Assembly: GCF_009758015.1 (NCBI RefSeq)
Contig: NZ_WSEL01000011.1
Span: forward strand, 216,424 to 280,423
Reading direction: 5' to 3'
DNA: 64,000 bases
Source of the DNA: Ramlibacter pinisoli
GTDB taxonomy: Bacteria; Pseudomonadota; Gammaproteobacteria; Burkholderiales; Burkholderiaceae_C
Shown: positions 12,147-23,238 of the stretch, piece by piece
How positions within the stretch are numbered: position 1 is the stretch's first letter
How the letters are laid out: the number at the start of each line of letters is the position of its first letter
Made by a program: the position numbers and the translations under genes
Notes under the pieces: generated by a model
Told to the model about the DNA's origin: nothing
What the model saw: only the letters and a program-made list of their open reading frames with translations
The model's database searches: none

Positions 12147-12971
12147 TCAGTCGCGGCCGAACTCGTCGCCCAGTTCGGCGGCGCGGCGGCAGGCGGCATG
12201 CATGGCGGCGACGAACCTGTCGGCCACCGCGTCCTGCTGCAGGGAGGTGAGGGCCGCGTAGGTGGTGCCACCCTTGGACGTCACCCGCTCGCGCAGCACC
12301 GCCGGCGGCTCGCTGGAGGCGCGGGCCAGTTCGGAGGCGCCGGCGAAGGTGCCGATGGCCAGTTGCAACGCCTTGGCCGGCGGCAGGCCCATCTCGGCGC
12401 CCGCCCGGGCCATGGCCTCGATGAAATAGAAGACGTAGGCCGGTCCCGATCCGGACAGCGCGGTCACCGCGTCGAGCTGCTGCTCGGCATCGACCCACAG
12501 GGTGGCGCCGGTGGGCGCCAGCACCTGCTCGACCAGCTGGCGGTCGGCGGCGCTGACGGCGGCCCGGGCAAAGAGCGCCGTCATGCCGCGGCCGACCAGG
12601 GCCGGCGTGTTGGGCATGCTGCGCACGATGCGCTCGCTGCCGGTCCAGTGCGCGATGCTGTCCGAGCGGATGCCGGCGGCGACGCTCAGGTGCAGCGCGT
12701 TGTGCGTGTGCGCTGCGACGGCCTGGGCGGCGGCGCGAAAGGTCTGCGGCTTGACGGCCCACACGACCAGCTGCGCCGGCGCGAGGAAGTCCCCGGCCTG
12801 CTCGTGCGCCGTGACGCCGAACTCGCGCGCGAGCCGCCCGCGCGCCTCCTCGAACGGTTCCACGACCTGCACCTGCGAGGGCGCCAGGCCCTGTCGCAGC
12901 AGGCCGCCGAGGATGGCGCTGGCCATGTTGCCGCCGCCGATGAATGCGATCCGGATCGAGTGCAGGTCCAT
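12147..12971 (-). CDS. proC: Pyrroline-5-carboxylate reductase
   Basis: A 274-residue ProC, the last step of proline synthesis (P5C to proline with NAD(P)H). The Rossmann start IAFIGGGNMASAI is at residues 8-20, VVWAVKPQ marks the cofactor domain edge, and the C-terminal family signature runs from ALSGSGPAYVF through TSKGGTTYAAL. It is a single-gene unit by appearance: convergent with ubiA, and its start lies 9 bases from the lacI-type gene stop on the same strand, so read-through from that gene is possible. Confidence 0.98.
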   Translation of the reverse strand: MDLHSIRIAFIGGGNMASAILGGLLRQGLAPSQVQVVEPFEEARGRLAREFGVTAHEQAGDFLAPAQLVVWAVKPQTFRAAAQAVAAHTHNALHLSVAAGIRSDSIAHWTGSERIVRSMPNTPALVGRGMTALFARAAVSAADRQLVEQVLAPTGATLWVDAEQQLDAVTALSGSGPAYVFYFIEAMARAGAEMGLPPAKALQLAIGTFAGASELARASSEPPAVLRERVTSKGGTTYAALTSLQQDAVADRFVAAMHAACRRAAELGDEFGRD

Positions 12972-12980
12972 GCGCGCAGT

Positions 12981-14054
12981 CTAGCCCGCAGCACGTTGCA
13001 GACCCGCGGGTGGCGCCGTGCTGCCGCGCTGCACGAGCTGGACCGGGAACTGCTGGAACGGCTCCCAGGGGCCGCCCTCGAGCCGTGCCACCAGCTGGTC
13101 GGCCGCGGCCCGGCCGATGTCCACCACCGGCGTCGCGACGCTCGTCAGGCCGGGCGTCTGCGTGGCACCCAGGTCGGTGTTGTCGACCCCCGTGATCGAC
13201 ATCTCCTGCGGGACCCGGACGCCGGCCTTGCGGCAGGCCAGCATCGCGCCGACGGCGAACACGTCGTTGGTCGCCACCACGGCCGTCGGCCGGTCGGGCG
13301 CCGCCAGCAGGCGTGCCATGCCCGCCTCTGCCGTCGCCAGCGAGATGGGCTCGTAGGCGACATGGCGCGGATCGAGGCCGAGGCCGTGTTCCGCCAGCGC
13401 GGCGCGCAGGCCTTCGCCGCGGGCCCGGGCGCGGTCGTTGCCGGACAACGGCGCGCTGAGCAGGCCGATGCGCCGGTGGCCCAGCGCAATCAAGTGCCGC
13501 GCCACTTCGTAGGTGGCCGCGCGGTTGTCGAACCCGATGCTGGGATGGCGTTGCAGCGGGTCCACGCCCCAGGTGAGCACGAACGGCCGGCCGTAGTCCT
13601 CCAGCAGCGAAAAGAGGGCCTGCTCATGGTCCAGGCCGACCAGCAGGAACGCGTCGACCCCGCGCTCGATCAGCTGGCCCGCGATGCGGGTCTCGACCGC
13701 GAGGTCATAGTGGTGCTCGGCCAGGACGAGGGCGTAGCCGCGCTCGTCCAGCCGCTGCTGCAGGGCGCTCGTGGTGCGGGCGTAGAGCGCGTAGTCGAAC
13801 GAGGGCACGATCGCGCCGATCATCCGGCTGCGGTGGCTGCGCAGGGTGCGGGCGGCGCCGTGCGGCACATACCGCAGCTTGGTGGCCGCCTCCAGCACCC
13901 GCCGGCGGGTGTCGGGGTCGACCTGCTGCGAGTTGTTCAGGACGCGGGAGACGGTGGCCGTCGATACGCCGGCGAGCTGGGCCACGTCCTTGGCGCCGGA
14001 GCGCGCCTTCGCCGCCCCCGCGGGCCGCTTGCTGCCGGAATGCTCGGTGCCCAT
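12981..14054 (-). CDS. LacI-family transcriptional regulator of the sulfatase/ABC operon
   Basis: A 357-residue LacI/GalR regulator. The N-terminal helix-turn-helix (about 21-43: KDVAQLAGVSTATVSRVLNN) and hinge helix (GAARTLRSHRS) are followed by a periplasmic-binding-protein-like ligand domain with TNDVFAVGAMLACR and GVDNTDLGA. It is divergent from the ABC importer operon with a 182-base spacer containing two identical 14-base TGTAATCGATTGCA sites, one next to its own start and one upstream of the importer. It most likely represses both directions until the imported solute or a product binds. The ligand is unknown. Confidence 0.93.
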   Translation of the reverse strand: MGTEHSGSKRPAGAAKARSGAKDVAQLAGVSTATVSRVLNNSQQVDPDTRRRVLEAATKLRYVPHGAARTLRSHRSRMIGAIVPSFDYALYARTTSALQQRLDERGYALVLAEHHYDLAVETRIAGQLIERGVDAFLLVGLDHEQALFSLLEDYGRPFVLTWGVDPLQRHPSIGFDNRAATYEVARHLIALGHRRIGLLSAPLSGNDRARARGEGLRAALAEHGLGLDPRHVAYEPISLATAEAGMARLLAAPDRPTAVVATNDVFAVGAMLACRKAGVRVPQEMSITGVDNTDLGATQTPGLTSVATPVVDIGRAAADQLVARLEGGPWEPFQQFPVQLVQRGSTAPPAGLQRAAG

Positions 14055-14062
14055 GACTCCCT

Positions 14063-14076
14063 TGTAATCGATTGCA
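14063..14076. promoter_or_regulatory. LacI-type operator 1
   Basis: TGTAATCGATTGCA, a near-perfect palindrome around central CG that fits LacI/GalR operators. It lies 9 bases upstream of the lacI-type gene start (that gene reads leftward), so binding would block its own transcription or ribosome access. An identical copy lies 114 bases to the right. Confidence 0.75.
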
Positions 14077-14176
14077 GGAATCTAACCCAGCGGAGAAGCT
14101 CATGACAACTCGGTCTATGGGGAAAGCCCCTAGACCGGCCACAATGACAGCACCGGAGCCGGTCGCTAGACTGCCA

Positions 14177-14190
14177 TGTAATCGATTGCA
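14177..14190. promoter_or_regulatory. LacI-type operator 2
   Basis: Second copy of TGTAATCGATTGCA, in the same orientation as the first. Flanking bases extend the palindrome to ATGTAATCGATTGCAT with a single mismatched pair. It lies 47 bases before the ATG of the solute-binding protein gene, where it would overlap or follow that promoter. The 114-base centre spacing (about 11 helical turns) would allow looping between the two sites. Confidence 0.78.
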
Positions 14191-14236
14191 TGGCCACTGC
14201 CGCCTCCTCCACCTTCCACCGCCTGGAGATCGACGC

Positions 14237-15652
14237 ATGAAGAAATCAGTTCGCTCGCCCCTCGACCTGGACGCCAGCCGCCGCGAGTTCCTGGGACAAG
14301 CCGCGGCGCTGGGCGCCGTCGGCGTGGCCGGGACATGGCCCGCGATGGCGCAGGCGCAAGCCGCGGCCGACCTGGGGCCCTACCGCTCCGCGAAGATCAA
14401 CTGGCGCCAGGCCGAAGGCGAATCGATCTCGGTCGCGGTGATCCCGGCCAGCTACTTCGACAACCTGCTCGGCCTGCTGCCGCAGTTCGAGGCCCTCACC
14501 GGCATCAAGGTGCGGGCGGAGAAGGTGCCGCCGGGCCAGATCCGGCAGAAGGCCCTGCTGGACCTGTCGTCCAAGACCGGGACCTACGCGACGCACGCGG
14601 CCGACCCCATGTACTACCCGCTGTACGTCTCCAACAAGTGGGTCGAACCGCTGGACAAGTACCTCGGGGACGCCACCCTCACCGACCCGGCCTGGTTCAA
14701 CTACAACGACATCTTCAAGGCCTGGCGCGACGCCGATTCCGTCGACGGCAAGCCCTATGGCATCCCATACGACGGCGAGGTCACCGTGCAGGTCTACCGC
14801 AAGGACCTGTACGACGCCAAGGGCCTGAAGCCGGCCGAGACCTACGACCAGCTGCTGTCCAACGCCAAGGCCCTGCACGACCCGGCCAACCGCATGTACG
14901 GGCTGGCGCTGCGCGGGTTCGCCGGCGCGGGCCAGAACATGTACATCTACCCGTCCCTGCTGCGGGGGTTCGGCGGCGACTGGTTCAGCAACAAGGCGCT
15001 GACCGTCAACGGGCCCGAGGCGGTCAAGGCGCTCGACTGGTACGTCCAGGCGCTGGCCCAGTACGCGCCGCCGGCGGTGCGCAACTGGAACTGGCCCGAC
15101 ATCGCCGACGCGTTCTCGCAGGGCACGGTGGGTTGCTACATCGACGCGCACTCGTCGGCCGCGGTCATCACCAACCCGGAAAAGTCCAAGGTGGTCGGCA
15201 AGGTGGCGTACGCCCGCTGGCCCAAGGGCCCGTCGGGCAAGCGCGTCACCTCGATCTGGAACTGGGGCTTCCCCATCAATGCGTCGCTGAGCGACAAGGC
15301 CAAGAAGGCCACCTGGCTGTTCATCAGCTGGGCCGCGTCGGCCGAGACCCAGGCCCGCACGTCGTGGAAGTTCGACGGCCCGGCCAAGCGCTCGGGCCTG
15401 AACCGCGCATCGTTGTGGAAATCGGCGGAGTTCGCCGCCGCCATGAAGGGCGCGGGCGACAACTTCATCCCCGCCGCGCTGGAATCGCTCGAGCAGGACA
15501 CGGACGTCGACTGGCGGCCCCGCGTGCCGCAGTGGCCCGCCATCGGCGACACCATGGCCACGGCCATCCAGGCGGCGCTGGTCGGCCAGAAGAAGCCGAA
15601 GGAGGCGCTCGACGAGGCCCAGGCCCGCATCGCGCAGGTGATGAAGGGCTGA
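14237..15652 (+). CDS. ABC importer solute-binding protein (family 1), Tat-exported
   Basis: A 471-residue extracellular solute-binding protein of the sugar/polyol type. The N-terminus carries a twin-arginine signal (SRREFLG at residues 14-20, then a hydrophobic stretch ending AMAQAQA), so it is probably exported folded. The body has the two-lobed architecture with conserved DSVDGKPYGIPY and a C-terminal region with WGFPINASLSDKAKKATW. It heads the LacI-controlled operon; two permeases, an ATPase, a sulfatase and its activating enzyme follow within a few bases of each other. The natural ligand is unknown; a sulfated small carbohydrate, polyol or amino-alcohol is inferred from the downstream sulfatase. 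Confidence 0.93.
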   Translation: MKKSVRSPLDLDASRREFLGQAAALGAVGVAGTWPAMAQAQAAADLGPYRSAKINWRQAEGESISVAVIPASYFDNLLGLLPQFEALTGIKVRAEKVPPGQIRQKALLDLSSKTGTYATHAADPMYYPLYVSNKWVEPLDKYLGDATLTDPAWFNYNDIFKAWRDADSVDGKPYGIPYDGEVTVQVYRKDLYDAKGLKPAETYDQLLSNAKALHDPANRMYGLALRGFAGAGQNMYIYPSLLRGFGGDWFSNKALTVNGPEAVKALDWYVQALAQYAPPAVRNWNWPDIADAFSQGTVGCYIDAHSSAAVITNPEKSKVVGKVAYARWPKGPSGKRVTSIWNWGFPINASLSDKAKKATWLFISWAASAETQARTSWKFDGPAKRSGLNRASLWKSAEFAAAMKGAGDNFIPAALESLEQDTDVDWRPRVPQWPAIGDTMATAIQAALVGQKKPKEALDEAQARIAQVMKG

Positions 15653-15658
15653 GGCCGG

Positions 15659-16561
15659 ATGCCTGCGCCCCGCGCGGCGGGCGCAGGGACGCTGGAGCGA
15701 CAGGAGCGGCGCTTCGCGCTGGCCCTGTTCGCGCCGGCATTCCTGCTGCTGCTGCTCACCACCACCGCCCCGCTGGTGTTCCTGGCCTGGAACAGCCTGC
15801 ACAAGCTCGACCTCGGCATGCCCTGGATGACGGGCTTCGCGGGCCTGGGCAACTACGCCAAGATGGGCGGCGACCCGCGCTTCTGGAATTCGCTGGCGCT
15901 CACCGTCGTCTACACGGCCTCCACGGTGATGCTGCAGGTGGCCATCGGCCTGTCGCTGGCGCTGCTGGTGCTGCAGATCCCGCGGGGCCAGGCGTGGCTG
16001 CGGGTCGCGGCCATCCTGCCCATCGTGCTGGCGCCGGTCGTGGTGGGCCTGTTCTGGCGCACCCTGGTGCTGTCGCCGGACGTCGGCCTGGTCGACGTCG
16101 TCACCCGCTGGCTCGGGCTGGGCAGCCACAACTGGCTCGGCGATCCCCAGCTCGCGCTGATCTCGGTGATCGCCATCCACACCTGGCAGTGGACGCCGTT
16201 CGCCTTCCTTGTGCTGCTGGCGACCCTGGCGACCCTGCCGCCGGACGTCTACGAGGCCGCCCGGCTCGACCGCGCCAACGCCCGCCAGCGCTTTCGCCAC
16301 ATCACGCTGCCACTGATCCGCCCGGCCGTGGTGATGGTGGTGATCCTGCGCACGATGACGGCGCTGTCGGCGTTCGCGGCCATCTTCGCCGCCACCGGCG
16401 GCGGCCCGGGAACGTCGACCGAGATCCTCAACCTGTACGCCTACCGGACCTCCTTCACCGAGCTGAACATCGGCTACGGCTCCGCGCTCGCCATGGTCCT
16501 GCTGGCCGTCACCATGCTCGTGTCGTGGCTGCTGTTCCGGCGCCGGAAGGCCCCCGCATGA
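15659..16561 (+). CDS. ABC importer permease 1 (MalF/UgpA type)
   Basis: A 300-residue binding-protein-dependent permease with about six transmembrane helices, the first near residues 20-42. The EAA loop that docks on the ATPase is visible as YEAARLDRANARQRFRHITL (about 198-217). It starts 6 bases after the solute-binding protein gene and overlaps the next permease gene by 4 bases. It pairs with the 16558-17397 product to form the channel. Confidence 0.95.
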   Translation: MPAPRAAGAGTLERQERRFALALFAPAFLLLLLTTTAPLVFLAWNSLHKLDLGMPWMTGFAGLGNYAKMGGDPRFWNSLALTVVYTASTVMLQVAIGLSLALLVLQIPRGQAWLRVAAILPIVLAPVVVGLFWRTLVLSPDVGLVDVVTRWLGLGSHNWLGDPQLALISVIAIHTWQWTPFAFLVLLATLATLPPDVYEAARLDRANARQRFRHITLPLIRPAVVMVVILRTMTALSAFAAIFAATGGGPGTSTEILNLYAYRTSFTELNIGYGSALAMVLLAVTMLVSWLLFRRRKAPA

Positions 16562-17397
16562 TGCGCGGCGCGTCACGGCAGGTGGTCCTGTTCGCCGTCG
16601 CCGGCCTGCTGGTGTCGGTGTGGGCGTTCCCGGTGCTGTGGGCGTTGCTCACGTCGTTCAAGACCGAGCGCGACGTGCTGGCCTACCCGCCGCTGCTGGT
16701 GTTCACGCCGACCCTGGCGAACTACCGCGACGTGCTGTGGGGCCCGACATCCATCCTGCCGAACCTGTGGTCGAGCGCCGTGGTGAGCTGCTGCGCCACG
16801 CTGCTGACGGTGGCCTTCGCCACGCCCGCCGCCTATGCCCTGGCCCGCCTGCGCTATCCGGGCCGGCGCGCCAGCGGGTTCTATGTCCTGGTCACCCAGA
16901 TGCTGCCGCCGGTGGGGCTGGTCATCCCCTACTACCTGGTGCTGCAGCGCATCGGCGCCCTCGACACCTACACCGGGCTGGTGGTGATCTACCTCACCTT
17001 CTCGCTGCCGTTCGCCATCTGGCTGCTGGTCTCGTACTTCGAGGACGTGCCGTACGAGATGGAGGAGGCGGCGCTGCTCGATCGCGCCGGCCGCCTGCGC
17101 GCGTTCTGGCACGTGGTCCTGCCGCAGGTGCGCGGCGGGCTGGCGGTGACCACCGTGTTCGTGTTCCTGAACGCCTGGAACGAATTCATGTTCGCCGTCG
17201 TGCTGGGCGGCAACAAGGTGCGGCCGGTCACGGTCGCGATGTTCAATTTCATCTCCGTCGAGCAGACCCAGTGGGCGCGCCTGGCCGCCGGGGCGATGGT
17301 GGCGATGGCGCCCGTGATCCTGGTCGGCCTGTTCGCGCAGCGCCACATCGTGAAGGGATTGACGGTGGGCGCGGTCAAGGGAGGGGGACGTCGATGA
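16558..17397 (+). CDS. ABC importer permease 2 (MalG/UgpE type)
   Basis: A 279-residue permease with six predicted helices and an EAA loop at about 174-195 (EMEEAALLDRAGRLRAFW, then LPQVRGG). The chosen ATG at 16558 overlaps the stop of permease 1; a second ATG directly follows (16561) and cannot be excluded. Its stop overlaps the ATPase ATG (ATGA), so four transporter genes are tightly coupled. Confidence 0.95.
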   Translation: MMRGASRQVVLFAVAGLLVSVWAFPVLWALLTSFKTERDVLAYPPLLVFTPTLANYRDVLWGPTSILPNLWSSAVVSCCATLLTVAFATPAAYALARLRYPGRRASGFYVLVTQMLPPVGLVIPYYLVLQRIGALDTYTGLVVIYLTFSLPFAIWLLVSYFEDVPYEMEEAALLDRAGRLRAFWHVVLPQVRGGLAVTTVFVFLNAWNEFMFAVVLGGNKVRPVTVAMFNFISVEQTQWARLAAGAMVAMAPVILVGLFAQRHIVKGLTVGAVKGGGRR

Positions 17398-18446
17398 ACG
17401 GGGGGGCGGTGCGCCTGCAGGGCGTGGTCAAGCGGCATGGGGAGACGACCGTGCTGCACGGCGTCGACCTGGAGATCCAGGCCGGGGAATTCTTCGTCCT
17501 GCTCGGGCCCTCGGGGTCGGGCAAGACCACCACGCTGCGCATCCTCGCCGGCCTGGAGACCGTCAGTGCCGGGCAGGTGCTGATGGATGGCGCCGACGTG
17601 ACCGAGCACGAGCCGGGCCTGCGCGACGTCGCCATGGTGTTCCAGAGCTACGCGCTGTACCCGCACATGACGGTGGCCGAGAACATCGGGTTCCCGCTGC
17701 GCATGGTCGGCACCCCGCGCGCGACGATCGCGCGATCGGTCGAGGACGCGGCGGCGCGGGTGAGCATCGGCCACCTGCTGCAGCGGCGCCCCGGGCAACT
17801 GTCCGGCGGGCAGCAGCAGCGCGTGGCGCTGGCCCGCGCCATCGTGCGCAAGCCGCGGCTGTTCCTGCTGGACGAGCCGCTGTCCAACCTGGACGCCAAG
17901 CTGCGGCTGGAGACCCGGCTGGAGCTGCGGCAACTGCAGCGCTCGCTGGGCGTGACCACCGTCTACGTGACGCACGACCAGGAGGAAGCCATGACGCTGG
18001 CCGACCGCGTGGCGGTGTTCATGGACGGCCGCATCGTGCAGGTCGCCACGCCGCGCGAGATCTTCCGGCGGCCCTCGCAGGTGTCGGTGGCCGGCTTCAT
18101 CGGCACGCCGCCGATGAATCTGCTGGACGCCACCTGGCAGGGCGACGCGGTGTCGATCGACGGCGTCGCCCATCCGGTCGGCGCCAGGACGGAGCAGCCA
18201 CGCGAGGTCACGCTGGGCGTGCGGCCTGGCGACCTGCGCGCCGGCAGCACCGGCATCCCGGCGCGCGTCGAGTACGTCGAGGAGCTCGGCGACCACTGCG
18301 TGCTCGACCTGCGGGCGGGCGCACAGCGCCTGAAGTGGCGCGCCGACGGACATCCCGACCTGCGCGAAGGCGACACCACCTGGCTCAGCTTCGCCCCAGC
18401 GTCGGCCCACCTGTTCGACCGCGCCGGCGGCGAACGCCTGAACTGA
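17394..18446 (+). CDS. ABC importer ATPase (UgpC/MsmK type)
   Basis: A 350-residue ATPase of the carbohydrate-uptake CUT1 class. Motifs in order: Walker A GPSGSGKT (38-45), Q-loop VFQSYALYPHM, signature LSGGQQQRVALAR, Walker B RLFLLDEPLSNLD, H-loop VTHDQEEA. A C-terminal TOBE/regulatory domain covers about 235-350, as in MalK and UgpC. The ATG overlaps the permease stop. The sulfatase gene begins 23 bases downstream, linking the importer with the hydrolase. Confidence 0.97.
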   Translation: MNGGAVRLQGVVKRHGETTVLHGVDLEIQAGEFFVLLGPSGSGKTTTLRILAGLETVSAGQVLMDGADVTEHEPGLRDVAMVFQSYALYPHMTVAENIGFPLRMVGTPRATIARSVEDAAARVSIGHLLQRRPGQLSGGQQQRVALARAIVRKPRLFLLDEPLSNLDAKLRLETRLELRQLQRSLGVTTVYVTHDQEEAMTLADRVAVFMDGRIVQVATPREIFRRPSQVSVAGFIGTPPMNLLDATWQGDAVSIDGVAHPVGARTEQPREVTLGVRPGDLRAGSTGIPARVEYVEELGDHCVLDLRAGAQRLKWRADGHPDLREGDTTWLSFAPASAHLFDRAGGERLN

Positions 18447-18469
18447 TCGATTGGCCGGAAGGAACCGAG

Positions 18470-20086
18470 ATGAACCAGCGCCCCAACATCCTCCTGATCC
18501 TCAACGACGACATGGGCTACTCCGACATCGGCTGCTTCGGCGGCGAAGTCGACACCCCCAACCTGGACCGCCTGGCCCGGGGCGGACTGCGCTTCACGCA
18601 GTTCTACAACACCGCGCGCTGCAGTCCTTCGCGCGCCTCGCTGCTGACCGGGCTGCATCCGCACCAGACCGGGATCGGGATCCTGACGTACGACTCGGGA
18701 CCGGAAGGCTACGCCGGCAACCTGAACCAGCGCTGCGCGACGATCGCCGAAGTGCTCAAGCCGGCCGGTTACCGCAGCTACCTGAGCGGCAAGTGGCACG
18801 TGTCGAGCAACCTGAAGCAGCCGACCGATTCGTGGCCGATGCAGCGGGGCTTCGACGACTTCTACGGCACCATCATCGGGGCCGGCAGCTTCTACGACCC
18901 GAACACGCTCACGCGCCGCAACGAGAACGTCGAGCACGAGGCGCGCGAACCGGGCTTCTTCTACACCGACGCCATCAGCGACGAGGCGGTGGCGTTCCTG
19001 CGCCGGCACCAGGCCGAGCACGCCGACAAGCCGTTCTTCCAGTACGTCGCCTACACCGCGCCGCACTGGCCGCTGCATGCCCATCCCGAGGACATCGCCA
19101 AGTACAAGGGGCGGTTCGACGAAGGCTGGGACCGGCTGCGCGAGCAGCGCCTGGAACGGCTGGTCAGTTCCGGCATCCTGGACGCCCAGTGGAAGCTCAC
19201 GCCGCGCGATCCGAACCAGCCGCCTTGGACCGACGTGCAGCACAAGCGCTGGCTCGCCAACTGCATGGAGGTGTACGCCGCCCAGATCGACCGGATGGAC
19301 CAGGGCATCGGCCGCATTCTGTCCACCCTGGAGCAGTCCGGGCAGCTCGAGAACACGCTGGTGATCTTCCTGTCCGACAACGGTGCCTGCGCCGAGGACA
19401 TCCCGGAGGACGTCACCATCGACGAAGTGGTGAACAAGCTGATGATCGCGCGCTCGCACACGCGCGACGGCCGCGAGGTGCGCTTCGGCAACAACCCCGA
19501 CGTCGAGCCCGGCCCCGAGGACACCTACCAGAGCTACGGGCAGGCCTGGGCCAACCTGTCGAACACGCCGTTCCGCCTGTACAAGCACTGGATCCACGAA
19601 GGCGGCATCTCGACCCCGCTGATCTTCCACTGGCCCCGGGGCATCGCGCAGCGCGGCGAGATCCGGCACACGCCGGGCTACCTGCCCGACATCATGGCCA
19701 CGATCCTGGATGTCAGCGGCGCCCCCTACCCGCAGCAGCTGGACGGACGGGCCATCCTGCCGCTGGAAGGCCACTCGTTGAAGCAGGCGTTCGCGGCCGA
19801 CGCCGGCGAGCGGCCGCCGATGTTCTGGGAACACGAGGGCAACGCGGCCGTCCGCATCGGCCAGTGGAAGCTGGTGCGCGAGTACCCCAAGGGCTGGGAG
19901 CTGTACGACATGGAGGCCGACCGCACCGAGTTGCGCAACCTGGCGTCCGAGCACCCGGACCGGGTGGCCGACATGAAGCGCCAGTACGACGCCTGGGCCG
20001 CCCGCTGCGGCGTGCTGCCGCGCGACAAGGTGGTGGCGCTGATGCGCAGCCAGGGCGTGACCAGGGCATTCTGGGAGGACGAGTGA
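18470..20086 (+). CDS. Cytoplasmic type I (formylglycine) sulfatase
   Basis: A 538-residue sulfatase of the alkaline phosphatase superfamily. The catalytic motif is Cys51-Ser-Pro-Ser-Arg (CSPSR), where Cys51 must be turned into formylglycine. Metal ligands are visible as NDDMG (Asp13, Asp14) and SDNG near residue 303, with GKWH near 105 and PHW near 197 as active-site segments. There is no signal peptide, so it should act on a sulfate ester already imported by the upstream ABC system. It would free sulfate plus an alcohol or sugar. Its stop overlaps the GTG start of the activating enzyme (GTGA). The exact substrate cannot be read from sequence. Confidence 0.95.
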   Translation: MNQRPNILLILNDDMGYSDIGCFGGEVDTPNLDRLARGGLRFTQFYNTARCSPSRASLLTGLHPHQTGIGILTYDSGPEGYAGNLNQRCATIAEVLKPAGYRSYLSGKWHVSSNLKQPTDSWPMQRGFDDFYGTIIGAGSFYDPNTLTRRNENVEHEAREPGFFYTDAISDEAVAFLRRHQAEHADKPFFQYVAYTAPHWPLHAHPEDIAKYKGRFDEGWDRLREQRLERLVSSGILDAQWKLTPRDPNQPPWTDVQHKRWLANCMEVYAAQIDRMDQGIGRILSTLEQSGQLENTLVIFLSDNGACAEDIPEDVTIDEVVNKLMIARSHTRDGREVRFGNNPDVEPGPEDTYQSYGQAWANLSNTPFRLYKHWIHEGGISTPLIFHWPRGIAQRGEIRHTPGYLPDIMATILDVSGAPYPQQLDGRAILPLEGHSLKQAFAADAGERPPMFWEHEGNAAVRIGQWKLVREYPKGWELYDMEADRTELRNLASEHPDRVADMKRQYDAWAARCGVLPRDKVVALMRSQGVTRAFWEDE

Positions 20087-21018
20087 CGGGTTGCTGCCTG
20101 CCTCGCGCGGCCGGCACCGGCGTGGCGCGCCTGCCCGCCGCGCCAGCGCCGGGCAGCCGCGCCGGCGAGCTGCTGCAGCTGCCGGCCGGCCGGTTCCTGA
20201 TGGGCAGCGAGGCGGCCGAAGGGTTCGCCGAAGACGGCGAAGGTCCGGTGCGGGCCGTGCAGCTCGGCGCCTTCCGCATCGGCCGCACCGCGGTCACGAA
20301 CGCGCAGTTCCGGGACTTCGTGCGCGCGACCTCCTACATCACCGAGGCCGAGCAGGCCGGCAGCTCGTTCGTGTTCTACCTGCAGCTCGAGGCCCGGGTG
20401 CGGCCGTCGATCCGCCAGGTCTCGCGCGACCTGCCCTGGTGGGTGCCGGTCGAAGGCGCCTGCTGGCAACGGCCGGCAGGGCCCGGGTCGTCGATCCACC
20501 AGCGGCTCGACCACCCCGTGGTGCAGGTGTCCTGGAACGATGCCGCGGCGTTCTGCGCCTGGTCGGGCACGCGCCTGCCGACCGAAGCGCAGTGGGAGTA
20601 CGCGGCGCGGGGCGGCTTGGCGGGCAGGCGCTACCCCTGGGGCGACGAGTTCGAGCCCGACGGGCAGCGGCGCTGCAACACCTGGCAGGGCGCGTTTCCC
20701 GCCCAGCCACGGCCAGGCTGGACGCCGGGCACCGAGCCGGCGGATGCCTTCCCGCCGAACGGCTGGGGCCTGTACGACATGGCAGGCAACGCCTGGGAGT
20801 GGTGCGCCGACTGGTTCAGCGCCGACTACCACCGCGTCACGGCCGGCCAGGATCCGCTGCACGACAAGCCGACCGGGCGCAAGTCGATGCGGGGCGGCTC
20901 GTTCCTCTGCCACGAGTCGTACTGCAACCGCTACCGCGTTGCCGCGCGCGGCGCCAACTCGCCCGGCACGGCCAGCAGCAACTGCGGCTTCCGCGTTGCC
21001 GCGGCCGCCGGCGGCTGA
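20083..21018 (+). CDS. Formylglycine-generating enzyme (aerobic sulfatase-activating)
   Basis: A 311-residue FGE/SUMF1-type protein. It ends with the diagnostic RGGSFLC-HESYC-NRYR segment holding Cys276 and Cys281; the 5-residue spacing is that of the active-site pair in human and Streptomyces FGE. Other family blocks are PVVQVSWNDAAAFCAW, LPTEAQWEYAARG and GNAWEWCADW. The enzyme uses copper and oxygen to convert the CxPxR cysteine of sulfatases to formylglycine. The GTG start overlaps the sulfatase stop, so the pair is cotranslated. There is no signal peptide, consistent with the cytoplasmic sulfatase. Confidence 0.95.
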   Translation: MTGCCLPRAAGTGVARLPAAPAPGSRAGELLQLPAGRFLMGSEAAEGFAEDGEGPVRAVQLGAFRIGRTAVTNAQFRDFVRATSYITEAEQAGSSFVFYLQLEARVRPSIRQVSRDLPWWVPVEGACWQRPAGPGSSIHQRLDHPVVQVSWNDAAAFCAWSGTRLPTEAQWEYAARGGLAGRRYPWGDEFEPDGQRRCNTWQGAFPAQPRPGWTPGTEPADAFPPNGWGLYDMAGNAWEWCADWFSADYHRVTAGQDPLHDKPTGRKSMRGGSFLCHESYCNRYRVAARGANSPGTASSNCGFRVAAAAGG

Positions 21019-21033
21019 GGGACAATCCTGGCC

Positions 21034-22608
21034 ATGCGGAGAGAGGAACTGCTGGCTGCGCTGGCGCGCACGACGGCATGCGATGTCGCCGTCATCGGCG
21101 GCGGCGCCACCGGCCTGGGCGTGGCGCTCGACGCGGCCAGCCGCGGCCTGTCGGTGGTGCTCCTCGAGTCGCACGATTTCGGCGGCGGCACCTCCTCGCG
21201 GGCGACCAAGCTGGTGCACGGCGGGGTGCGCTACCTGGCGCAGGGCAACGTGGCCCTGGTGCGCGAGGCGCTGCACGAGAGGCGCGTGCTGCTGCGCAAC
21301 GCGCCGCACCTGGCGCAGCCGCTGCCCTTCGTCATGCCCTCCTACCGGCTCTGGGAAACCCCGTTCTACGGCGCCGGCCTCAAGCTGTACGACGCGCTGG
21401 CCGGGTCGGACGGGCTGGCCGACACCCGCTTCCTGAACCGGGCCGAGACGCTGGCCGCGCTGCCGACGGTGCGGCCGGACGGCCTGAAGGGCGGGGTCGA
21501 GTACTGGGACGGCCAGTTCGACGATGCCCGGCTGGCGCTGGCGCTGGCGCGCACCGCAGCCGCCCGCGGCGCCCTGGTGGTCAACTACTGCGCCGTCACC
21601 GGCCTGCTGCACGAGGGCGGGCGGGTGGCCGGGGTGCGCTGCGAGGACCGCGAGGGCGGCGCCGTGTTCGAGGTGCGGGCGCGCTGCGTGGTCAACGCGG
21701 CCGGCGTCTGGGTCGACCGCCTGCGCCAGGCCGACGGCGAGGCGATCGGGCGCGCCGTCCAGCCGATGGTGGCGCCCAGCCAGGGCGTGCACGTGGTGGT
21801 CGACCGCGAGTTCCTGCCCGGGCGGCATGCGCTCATGGTGCCCAAGACGGCCGACGGCCGGGTGCTGTTCGGCGTGCCCTGGCTGGGCAAGGTGATCCTG
21901 GGCACCACCGACACGCCGCGCGGCGACCTGGCGCGCGAGCCGCGCCCGTTCGACGCGGAGCTGCGCTTCATCCTCGGCGAGGCCGCGCGCTACCTGGTGC
22001 GGGCGCCGCGCCTGCAGGACGCGCGCAGCGTCTGGGTCGGGCTGCGCCCGCTGGTGCGGCCGCCGGACGACGAGGGCGCCCCCACCAAGGCCCTGAGCCG
22101 CGAGCACACGGTGCTGGTCAGCCGCTCGGGCCTGGTCACGGTGACCGGCGGCAAGTGGACCACCTACCGCGCCATGGCCGAGGACGTGCTCGAGCGCTGC
22201 GCCGAGGCCGGGCTGCTGCACGGGCTGGAGCGCGGAGTGACTGCTGACTTGCCGCTGGTCGGCGCCGATCCGGACACCGCCGGCCGGCGCCCGCTCAGCG
22301 ATCCGCCGGGGCTGCACCTGTATGGCAGCGAGGCCGGCGCGGTGCAGGCGCTGCCGGGCGCCGGCGCCGAGCTCGGCGGCGGCCTGACCGAGGCCATGGT
22401 GCGCTTCGCCGCCCGCCACGAGTACGCCCGGACGGTGGAGGACGTGCTGGCGCGGCGCTCGCGGCTGCTGTTCCTGGACGCCGCCCAGGCCGCCCGGCTC
22501 GGCGCCGCGGTGGCCGGCATCCTGCGCGAGGAGACCGGGGTGGACCCGCACGAGGCCGCGTTCGCCGCCCTGGCGGCCAGCTACCGCCCGGACCGCCAGC
22601 CCGCCTAG
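21034..22608 (+). CDS. glpD: FAD-dependent glycerol-3-phosphate dehydrogenase
   Basis: A 524-residue GlpD-type flavoprotein. The dinucleotide fold is at the start (VAVIGGGATGLGVALDAA, about 19-36). The family block FGGGTSSRATKLVHGGVRYL and the substrate region TGGKWTTYRAMAEDV are present. It oxidises sn-glycerol-3-phosphate to dihydroxyacetone phosphate and feeds electrons to quinone at the inner membrane. It starts 15 bases after the FGE gene, so it belongs to the LacI-controlled operon rather than to a glpFK locus (neither gene is near). The linkage suggests the imported compound yields glycerol or G3P, but this is inference. Confidence 0.93.
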   Translation: MRREELLAALARTTACDVAVIGGGATGLGVALDAASRGLSVVLLESHDFGGGTSSRATKLVHGGVRYLAQGNVALVREALHERRVLLRNAPHLAQPLPFVMPSYRLWETPFYGAGLKLYDALAGSDGLADTRFLNRAETLAALPTVRPDGLKGGVEYWDGQFDDARLALALARTAAARGALVVNYCAVTGLLHEGGRVAGVRCEDREGGAVFEVRARCVVNAAGVWVDRLRQADGEAIGRAVQPMVAPSQGVHVVVDREFLPGRHALMVPKTADGRVLFGVPWLGKVILGTTDTPRGDLAREPRPFDAELRFILGEAARYLVRAPRLQDARSVWVGLRPLVRPPDDEGAPTKALSREHTVLVSRSGLVTVTGGKWTTYRAMAEDVLERCAEAGLLHGLERGVTADLPLVGADPDTAGRRPLSDPPGLHLYGSEAGAVQALPGAGAELGGGLTEAMVRFAARHEYARTVEDVLARRSRLLFLDAAQAARLGAAVAGILREETGVDPHEAAFAALAASYRPDRQPA

Positions 22609-22869: not shown

Positions 22870-23238
22870 ATGATCCAGACTGAATCCCGGCTCGAAGTCG
22901 CCGACAACACGGGCGCGAAGTCCGTGCTTTGCATCAAGGTGCTCGGTGGCTCCAAGCGTCGCTACGCCAGCGTGGGCGACATCATCAAGGTGAGCATCAA
23001 GGAAGCCGCGCCGCGTGGCCGCGTCAAGAAGGGCGAGGTCTACAGCGCCGTGGTGGTCCGCACCGCCAAGGGCATCCGCCGTGGCGACGGCTCGCTCGTG
23101 AAGTTCGACGGCAATGCCGCCGTGCTGCTCAACAACAAGCTGGAGCCGATCGGCACCCGCATCTTCGGACCGGTGACGCGCGAGCTGCGCACCGAGAAGT
23201 TCATGAAGATCGTGTCCCTGGCCCCGGAAGTTCTGTAA
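22870..23238 (+). CDS. rplN: 50S ribosomal protein L14
   Basis: A 122-residue L14, full length, recognised from [17 protein letters not shown] through [12 protein letters not shown]14 sits at the base of the L7/L12 side and contacts 16S rRNA and release or silencing factors. A 261-base spacer with a near-consensus promoter separates it from glpD. Its usual upstream partners rplP-rpmC-rpsQ are not adjacent, so the spc operon starts here. Confidence 0.99.

Follow-up and report, generated by a model that had tools for sequence, protein, structure and literature searches.

A LacI-linked sulfatase cassette beside a resident glpD gene in Ramlibacter pinisoli: a candidate route for glycerol sulfate

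The import of sulfate esters, followed by their cleavage in the cytoplasm, is known in kind. In the Pseudomonas ats systems, an AtsR-AtsBC importer is paired with AtsA or AtsK; this importer belongs to a different class of ATP-binding cassette (ABC) transporters from the one described below, and the systems are controlled by sulfur starvation. A second precedent is the Ugp/UgpQ route, in which a glycerophosphodiester is imported whole and cut inside the cell, and its glycerol part goes to GlpD. Here we describe a sulfatase gene cassette of Ramlibacter pinisoli (assembly GCF_009758015.1), found in a 64,000-nucleotide stretch of contig NZ_WSEL01000011.1 (positions 216,424 to 280,423), which we call the window. 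In the reading that we favor, at a probability of roughly 55%, the cassette is repressed by LacI, takes up a small sulfate ester (probably a glycerol sulfate), removes the sulfate in the cytoplasm, and has been joined to a resident glpD gene.

The proposed pathway would begin with a CUT1-type ABC importer, whose substrate-binding protein (SBP) is probably exported by the twin-arginine (Tat) route, bringing in a small anionic sulfate ester. A formylglycine-generating enzyme (FGE) would form the formylglycine that activates the cytoplasmic sulfatase, which would then split the ester into free sulfate and an alcohol, most likely glycerol. The glycerol would be phosphorylated by a glycerol kinase encoded elsewhere in the genome, and the downstream GlpD-like dehydrogenase would carry the product on to dihydroxyacetone phosphate. 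The import and desulfation steps follow from established family knowledge applied to the sequence; the phosphorylation and oxidation steps we infer.

Gene content and regulation of the cassette

An earlier note on this DNA had described an operon of seven plus-strand genes with a divergent LacI gene, and all eight genes are present. In window coordinates, the cassette and its surroundings read:

12147-12971, minus strand: proC, left neighbor of the cassette (by synteny)
12981-14054, minus strand: divergent LacI-family repressor (Pfam LacI and Peripla_BP domains)
14063-14076, no strand: operator-like palindrome TGTAATCGATTGCA, site 1 (the exact genome matches are sites 1 and 2 only)
14177-14190, no strand: second copy of the operator-like palindrome TGTAATCGATTGCA (site 2), 114 bases away from the first
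14237-15652, plus strand: SBP with a twin-arginine type N-terminus (Pfam SBP_bac_1)
15659-16561, plus strand: ABC permease 1 (Pfam BPD_transp_1)
16558-17397, plus strand: ABC permease 2 (Pfam BPD_transp_1); of its adjacent ATG codons the first is used, and 16561 is an alternative start
17394-18446, plus strand: MalK/UgpC-type ATPase with a TOBE domain (Pfam)
18470-20086, plus strand: predicted cytoplasmic formylglycine sulfatase (Pfam Sulfatase; alignment to 7all and 1hdh)
20083-21018, plus strand: FGE (Pfam FGE-sulfatase, 268 bits)
21034-22608, plus strand: GlpD-like dehydrogenase dependent on flavin adenine dinucleotide (FAD) (Pfam DAO, 214.9 bits; DAO_C, 53.5 bits)
22870-23238, plus strand: rplN, encoding ribosomal protein L14, right neighbor of the resident glpD (by synteny)

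The plus-strand genes are as tightly packed as had been claimed, with overlaps of at most 4 bases and gaps of at most 23; the spacings are, in order, 6, -4 (or -1), -4, 23, -4 and 15 bases, negative values being overlaps. The GTG start codon of FGE overlaps the sulfatase stop codon, so the two proteins are probably co-translated.

The sulfatase aligns over nearly its full length with the Pseudomonas aeruginosa arylsulfatase 1hdh, and its best match among solved structures is 7all. We compared it with homologs from a scan of species genomes, in which the best 80 of 565 loci were kept for all 80-locus counts and the window's own genome (L001-L008) was excluded. Together with the window and six plasmid copies, one of them (L153) only 48% identical, these give 87 sequences, and 11 motif and catalytic positions are identical in all of them. 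The CxPxR activation motif (C51, P53, R55) is present in 87/87, as are the residues that we take, partly from recall, to be the metal and sulfate ligands (D13, D14, D317, N318, K113, H115, H211 and K375 in AtsA numbering). These motifs predict a protein that hydrolyzes sulfate esters. The N-terminus of the window protein leaves no room for a signal peptide. In the 80 loci, the matched region starts at residues 1 to 7 of the window protein, and a start codon lies at most 10 codons upstream of it in every one. An in-frame stop follows within 60 codons upstream in 53 of the 80, and in the other 27 the frame is open further upstream and the start is a guess.

FGE likewise appears to lack a signal peptide, as judged by eye. 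It scores 332 bits against the solved FGEs 5nxl and 6s07, and GGSFLCHESYCNRYR, which we take to be the site of the two active-site cysteines of the oxygen-dependent type, is aligned. Elsewhere on the chromosome, a separate cluster (G000:C3:766193-779628) contains another strong FGE along with five matches to Pfam Sulfatase.

The importer genes have the Pfam composition of a CUT1-type system: an SBP_bac_1 protein, two permeases, and a MalK-type ATPase with a TOBE/OB domain. The long N-terminus of the SBP contains two adjacent arginines (R15, R16), invariant in 25 aligned sequences. As this resembles Tat-exported proteins, the SBP is probably exported by that route; its structure prediction, made from 25 similar sequences, has a mean pLDDT of 66. 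None of the NCBIfam models for the Ugp importer is reached: permease 1 scores 93.5 against the UgpA cut-off of 335, the importer scores 80.1 against 297 for UgpE, the ATPase scores 402.8 against 432 for UgpC, and the UgpB model does not match the SBP. We regard the combination of importer and sulfatase as the firm part of our reading. The earlier proposal that the ester enters intact and is cut in the cytoplasm is thus backed by the importer genes and by a sulfatase without room for a signal peptide.

The LacI-family protein reaches no NCBIfam equivalog cut-off. Exact copies of TGTAATCGATTGCA occur twice in the 5.5-Mb genome, both between the LacI and SBP genes; the pattern with two mismatches occurs at three further places, and a reversed control pattern has no match in the genome. 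Among the 80 loci, 35 have an orthologous LacI gene, 26 have a GntR gene in the operon, none has both, and 19 have neither. The 35 LacI loci and the window together offer 36 LacI-SBP intergenic regions, although the motif was derived from the window, which is therefore not an independent test. At least one site with no more than two mismatches to TGYAATCGATTRCA is present in 36/36 of these regions, and at least two sites in 29, whereas simple base shuffles predict 0.1 regions with such a site. This conservation supports the LacI control that had been suggested for the operon, and we infer that its direction is repression.

The resident glpD gene

It was tempting to take the GlpD gene at the end of the operon as a clue to the product, as the earlier note had done. 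The window protein is an FAD-dependent oxidoreductase with a GlpO-type C-terminal domain (Pfam), its solved relatives are 3da1, 2rgh and 2qcu, and it misses the GlpD equivalog cut-offs (304.5 against 360 and 290.1 against 352 for NF008899 and NF009906). Among 60 genomes of the genus, a GlpD-like gene (E 1e-120) is present in 58, and the sulfatase (E 1e-150) in 17. Of the 30 GlpD loci returned, 20 come from genomes without a sulfatase match, and rplN adjoins glpD in 19 of them; in the other, L108, the contig continues for 1.5 kb downstream of glpD, and no rplN was found there. On the opposite side of glpD stands proC in 12 and glpK in 8, and in all six glpK-bearing genomes that were extended, proC lies beyond glpK, often with one gene between. 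Thus, glpD is a resident gene at this site with or without the sulfatase. Because of this, the GlpD of the window says little about the product of the sulfatase. The clue was a neighbor effect, we have dropped it as evidence, and the genus as a whole casts a weak vote for glycerol. A cassette beside a housekeeping gene is, in this respect, a case of a neighbor misleading a functional guess.

In the genus, the cassette seems to have ended up with proC on one side and the resident glpD, or glpK-glpD, on the other. In the window genome (G000) and in G401, G415, G416 and G419, the genes from LacI to FGE lie between proC and glpK or glpD. By coordinates, the sulfatase is next to glp genes in G414, G421, G428 and G429 as well, which brings the number to nine of 17. 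A Bug-type gene stands between FGE and glpK in G416 and G428. The cassette is located elsewhere in G400, G403, G410, G424, G444 and G446; G445 has a 59% identical sulfatase without the cassette, and in G451 the cassette and glpD are on different contigs, with no glp gene found in the 16 kb examined. The best GlpD matches of G445, G447 and G450 (56 to 57% identity) each contain one in-frame TGA.

In the genomes with proC next to glpD, glpD faces proC across a short gap. Since 15 bases separate glpD from the end of FGE in the window, glpD there probably relies on the cassette for its transcription, with FGE and glpD probably in the same transcript. One GlpD at E 1e-120 was found in the window genome (24 of 49 candidates scored). 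If it is the only one, general oxidation of glycerol 3-phosphate (G3P) would be tied to LacI control, unless there is a promoter inside FGE.

The window operon has no glycerol kinase gene; in ten related loci, one separates FGE from GlpD. The sole glycerol kinase match of the window genome is on another contig (C6:70701-72239), and no other glp genes were recognized in the 4.5 kb around it. Across the genus, a GlpK match (E 1e-120) occurs once in 56 of the 60 genomes, twice in one, and in none of the remaining three; it either adjoins glpD or lies at another place.

Conserved unit, exchangeable importers and the link to glycerol

The full eight-gene order of the window, with no glpK, recurs in L013, alone among the 80 loci, as well as in G401 and G419; the broadly conserved unit is instead the importer, sulfatase and FGE. 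All four importer genes are present in 64/80 loci, 58 of which also have FGE, so the arrangement is not due to chance. Seven other loci are partial at contig ends, and nine lack ABC genes. In three of these nine (L056, L057, L065), a gene for an MFS transporter precedes the sulfatase by 65 to 73 bases; its identity comes from a protein scan in L057 and from reading by eye in the other two. Near the sulfatase of five more (L031, L038, L044, L047, L050) lie another sulfatase and a dioxygenase of the TauD type, and the ninth, L085, is a short contig. Four of the metagenome-assembled genomes (MAGs; L017, L035, L047, L065) are titled Bordetella parapertussis or Acidobacteria and group with other beta-proteobacterial loci; these labels, given by the depositors, look doubtful.

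Seven plasmid records carry a copy of the sulfatase at 60 to 80% identity. Among the five examined, TRAP genes follow it on the plasmids of Paracoccus albus, P. saliphilus, Sulfitobacter and one of three Labrenzia, and the Bradyrhizobium copy has the ABC form of the importer. At E 1e-60, the TRAP binding protein turns up on six plasmid records, and these are exactly the sulfatase-bearing ones other than Bradyrhizobium; on the alpha-proteobacterial plasmids L149 to L152, a TRAP transporter stands in place of the ABC importer. FGE was not found in the examined stretch of the P. albus plasmid. A more distant copy (48%) lies behind a TauD-type gene on a Phaeobacter plasmid. On the Bradyrhizobium plasmid, a gene annotated as a chloride channel directly follows FGE (L154, 14594-16384), and a similar-looking gene occurs in L063 (12609-14399); perhaps it exports anions such as sulfate. 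Scoring at most three candidates per genome at the thresholds used, we found it in 3 of 399 genomes of an order sample and 4 of 397 of a phylum sample, both including the window genome, and with the L152 sulfatase as query, in 1 of 386 genomes of an alpha-proteobacterial class sample, the chosen center itself.

Outside the window's genome, glpK and/or glpD occur in 13/80 loci, and glpK in 12 of those 13. When the 80 loci are sorted by the flanking genes that they have in common, leaving glp and cassette genes aside, they form 40 contexts (short contigs count as separate contexts, and flanks of 3 kb or more on either side are available for 61 of the 80). The glp genes appear in four contexts: Ramlibacter and its kin, Alcaligenaceae-like MAGs, L057, and Xanthobacter (L076). 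Random placement would give 0.04 to 0.23 contexts, with a probability of 1e-7 to 1e-4 for four or more and 1e-5 to 2e-3 for three or more, a range that depends on the assumed flank length, genome size and copy number. On the sulfatase tree, the glp label is clustered and requires 6 changes, at least 4 of them forced by well-supported branches; two "no" labels adjacent to glp rows are missing data, as the contig stops 285 bases past FGE in L042 and 364 bases past the sulfatase in L056.

The arrangements themselves differ. In nine loci, glpK begins 7 to 22 bases after FGE. Upstream of the SBP gene of Xanthobacter aminoxidans L076, and on its strand, lie a gene of GlpR type that scores below its cut-off, then glpD and glpK; the gap between glpK and SBP is 26 or 68 bases, depending on the SBP start. 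L057 has the order MFS-sulfatase-FGE, followed by a GlpR-type gene, glpD and glpK. The Sulfitobacter plasmid L152 has, on one strand, glpD-glpK-GntR-sulfatase-TRAP-FGE, with GlpD and GlpK passing NCBIfam cut-offs; the GlpDs of L057 and L076 also pass the equivalog cut-off. Across the glp contexts, the GlpDs fall into two subfamilies, 31 to 37% alike between them. Those listed as relatives of the window GlpD are mostly from Ramlibacter, while for the L039 GlpD, 120 relatives were listed and the only two with an organism name are Alcaligenaceae, which speaks against a recent transfer of everything. The Bradyrhizobium L064 upstream genes that resemble GlpR, UgpB and UgpA are all below cut-off and were counted as nothing.

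The proposal of a glycerol- or G3P-yielding product is therefore changed in its grounds. Its window argument falls, and what stands is the presence of glpK and glpD beside the sulfatase elsewhere, with different GlpD subfamilies and importers. Because glycerol kinase is the recurrent partner, glycerol is a likelier product than G3P, and from this genomic context, glycerol and glycerol sulfate appear the most likely alcohol and ester. A G3P product would fit an enzyme of the sulfatase fold that acts as a phosphodiesterase or phosphonate monoester hydrolase and frees G3P for GlpD. Such an activity would account for a GlpD without GlpK in the window, and in L039, ugpB, ugpA and ugpE, all above NCBIfam cut-offs, lie beside the cassette, where glpK-glpD is also present; these L039 genes are equally part of the case for glycerol. 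We consider it very improbable, given the kinase in 12 of the 13 glp-bearing loci, and reject a phosphodiesterase identity on two counts: the sulfatase scores 81.5 against a cut-off of 900 for the PehA model NF045661, and K108, H110, H199 and K372 are of the sulfatase type in 87/87.

Several observations weigh against the glycerol sulfate reading. Near the sulfatase, glp genes are found in 4/40 contexts and one of four new plasmid settings, which is above chance and still a minority: 67/80 loci have no glpK or glpD in the available DNA, some of it ended by the contig, and in three of the four plasmid settings none was found. Both beta-proteobacterial contexts have their genes in the order FGE-glpK-glpD, and a single event could lie behind the two. 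L057 has no ABC importer, and a divergent regulator separates its glp genes from FGE. Other families match or exceed the glp genes in number of contexts: Bug-type binding proteins and ABC ATPases recur in 10 to 11, and a CoA-transferase and a GMC-type oxidoreductase in 4 each (these flank families come from single linkage over mixed reading frames, with rows named by eye). Together with the residence of glpD in the genus, the loci without glp in view would suit a general scavenging of sulfate esters, with a substrate unrelated to glycerol, sulfate as the prize, and glp genes nearby by chance or as favored landing sites. Second sulfatases of two types near 13/80 loci and TauD-type dioxygenases near 6/80 fit this too. 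We nevertheless consider it unlikely, as glp genes adjoin the sulfatase in more contexts than chance predicts, with GlpDs and importers that differ, and LacI- or GntR-type control would fit a carbon source better than sulfur starvation.

Alternatively, the ester might be a sulfated longer polyol or sugar, such as a hexitol sulfate, handled by the same steps to a product other than glycerol. The solved structures nearest the SBP, 5iai and 4rya, are named as sugar and sorbitol SBPs, which also tells against a glycerol ester; the regulator is of the LacI family, and the GMC-type oxidoreductase, read by eye, could act on another alcohol. However, no other sugar kinase or isomerase was recognized among the recurrent flank families, which were named by eye with no profile search, and the FGGY kinase near the Labrenzia plasmid copy, nearer XylB than GlpK, is below both cut-offs. 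On balance, a longer polyol seems improbable, and glycerol sulfate remains our preferred substrate.

The surroundings of the cassette repeatedly contain TauD-type dioxygenases, Bug-type binding proteins and second sulfatases of two types, as in L016, L017, L018, L020, L024, L030, L031, L034, L038, L044, L047, L048 and L050, a hint of larger sulfate-ester islands.

More broadly, and only tentatively, with the odds somewhat below even, these loci may represent a modular glycerol-sulfate pathway: one sulfatase lineage with its FGE, exchangeable CUT1 ABC, TRAP or MFS importers, and LacI or GntR regulators, feeding glpK and GlpD in alpha- and beta-proteobacteria and on plasmids. It is undescribed as far as we searched: among the titles and abstract openings listed from an open-access collection, we found no description of bacterial glycerol-sulfate catabolism, of this gene set, of its exchangeable importers or of its link to glpK and glpD, and PMC6107682 offered nothing relevant. 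Many bacterial sulfatases lack a known physiological substrate, and here genome context names a small, synthetically simple candidate. Two glycerol sulfate isomers are reported in atmospheric particles (PMC12224290). If glycerol sulfate is the substrate, the cassette would be a biological sink for small organosulfates like those in aerosols.

Comparison with known systems

The sulfoquinovosyl-glycerol SBP SmoF also has a sulfur-bearing glycerol ligand, but its substrate is a sulfonate rather than a sulfate ester, and it matches the window SBP weakly (E 1e-10). The Ugp/UgpQ route shares with the window cassette the logic of importing whole, cutting inside and feeding GlpD. It differs in handling phosphate instead of sulfate and in its hydrolase, and the window importer misses the Ugp cut-offs.

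Other systems share the chemistry. BetC, a class I sulfatase, acts on the small alkyl sulfate choline-O-sulfate (PMC5870055); the window sulfatase is unlike it, with 103.4 against a cut-off of 433.45 for the BetC model TIGR03417. In acesulfame degradation by Shinella, a formylglycine sulfatase 30% identical to choline sulfatase is placed on a catabolic plasmid (PMC11500405). The slf operon of plasmid pP62BP1 is a small regulated operon proposed for the catabolism of organic sulfates, with the alcohol oxidized onward (PMC3346939); unlike the window cassette, it is described there with a metallo-beta-lactamase type alkylsulfatase, an AraC regulator and a fatty-acid route, and with no formylglycine sulfatase.

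The nearest characterized relatives of the window sulfatase are probably the SulfAtlas S1_4 enzymes, a placement drawn from similarity to 1hdh alone. P. aeruginosa AtsA and Enterobacter AtsA are both tabulated as S1_4 in PMC5066984, and B. theta BT4683 is termed S1_4 in PMC10154612. The substrates described there are aryl esters or mucin glycans, unlike the ester proposed here.

A parallel in kind is Pseudomonas ats, which likewise combines ABC import of sulfate esters with cytoplasmic hydrolysis, and whose AtsA (1hdh) is a solved relative of the window sulfatase. The cassette described here differs from ats in its CUT1 importer, its LacI or GntR control, the FGE gene within the operon and, in some contexts, its glp neighbors.

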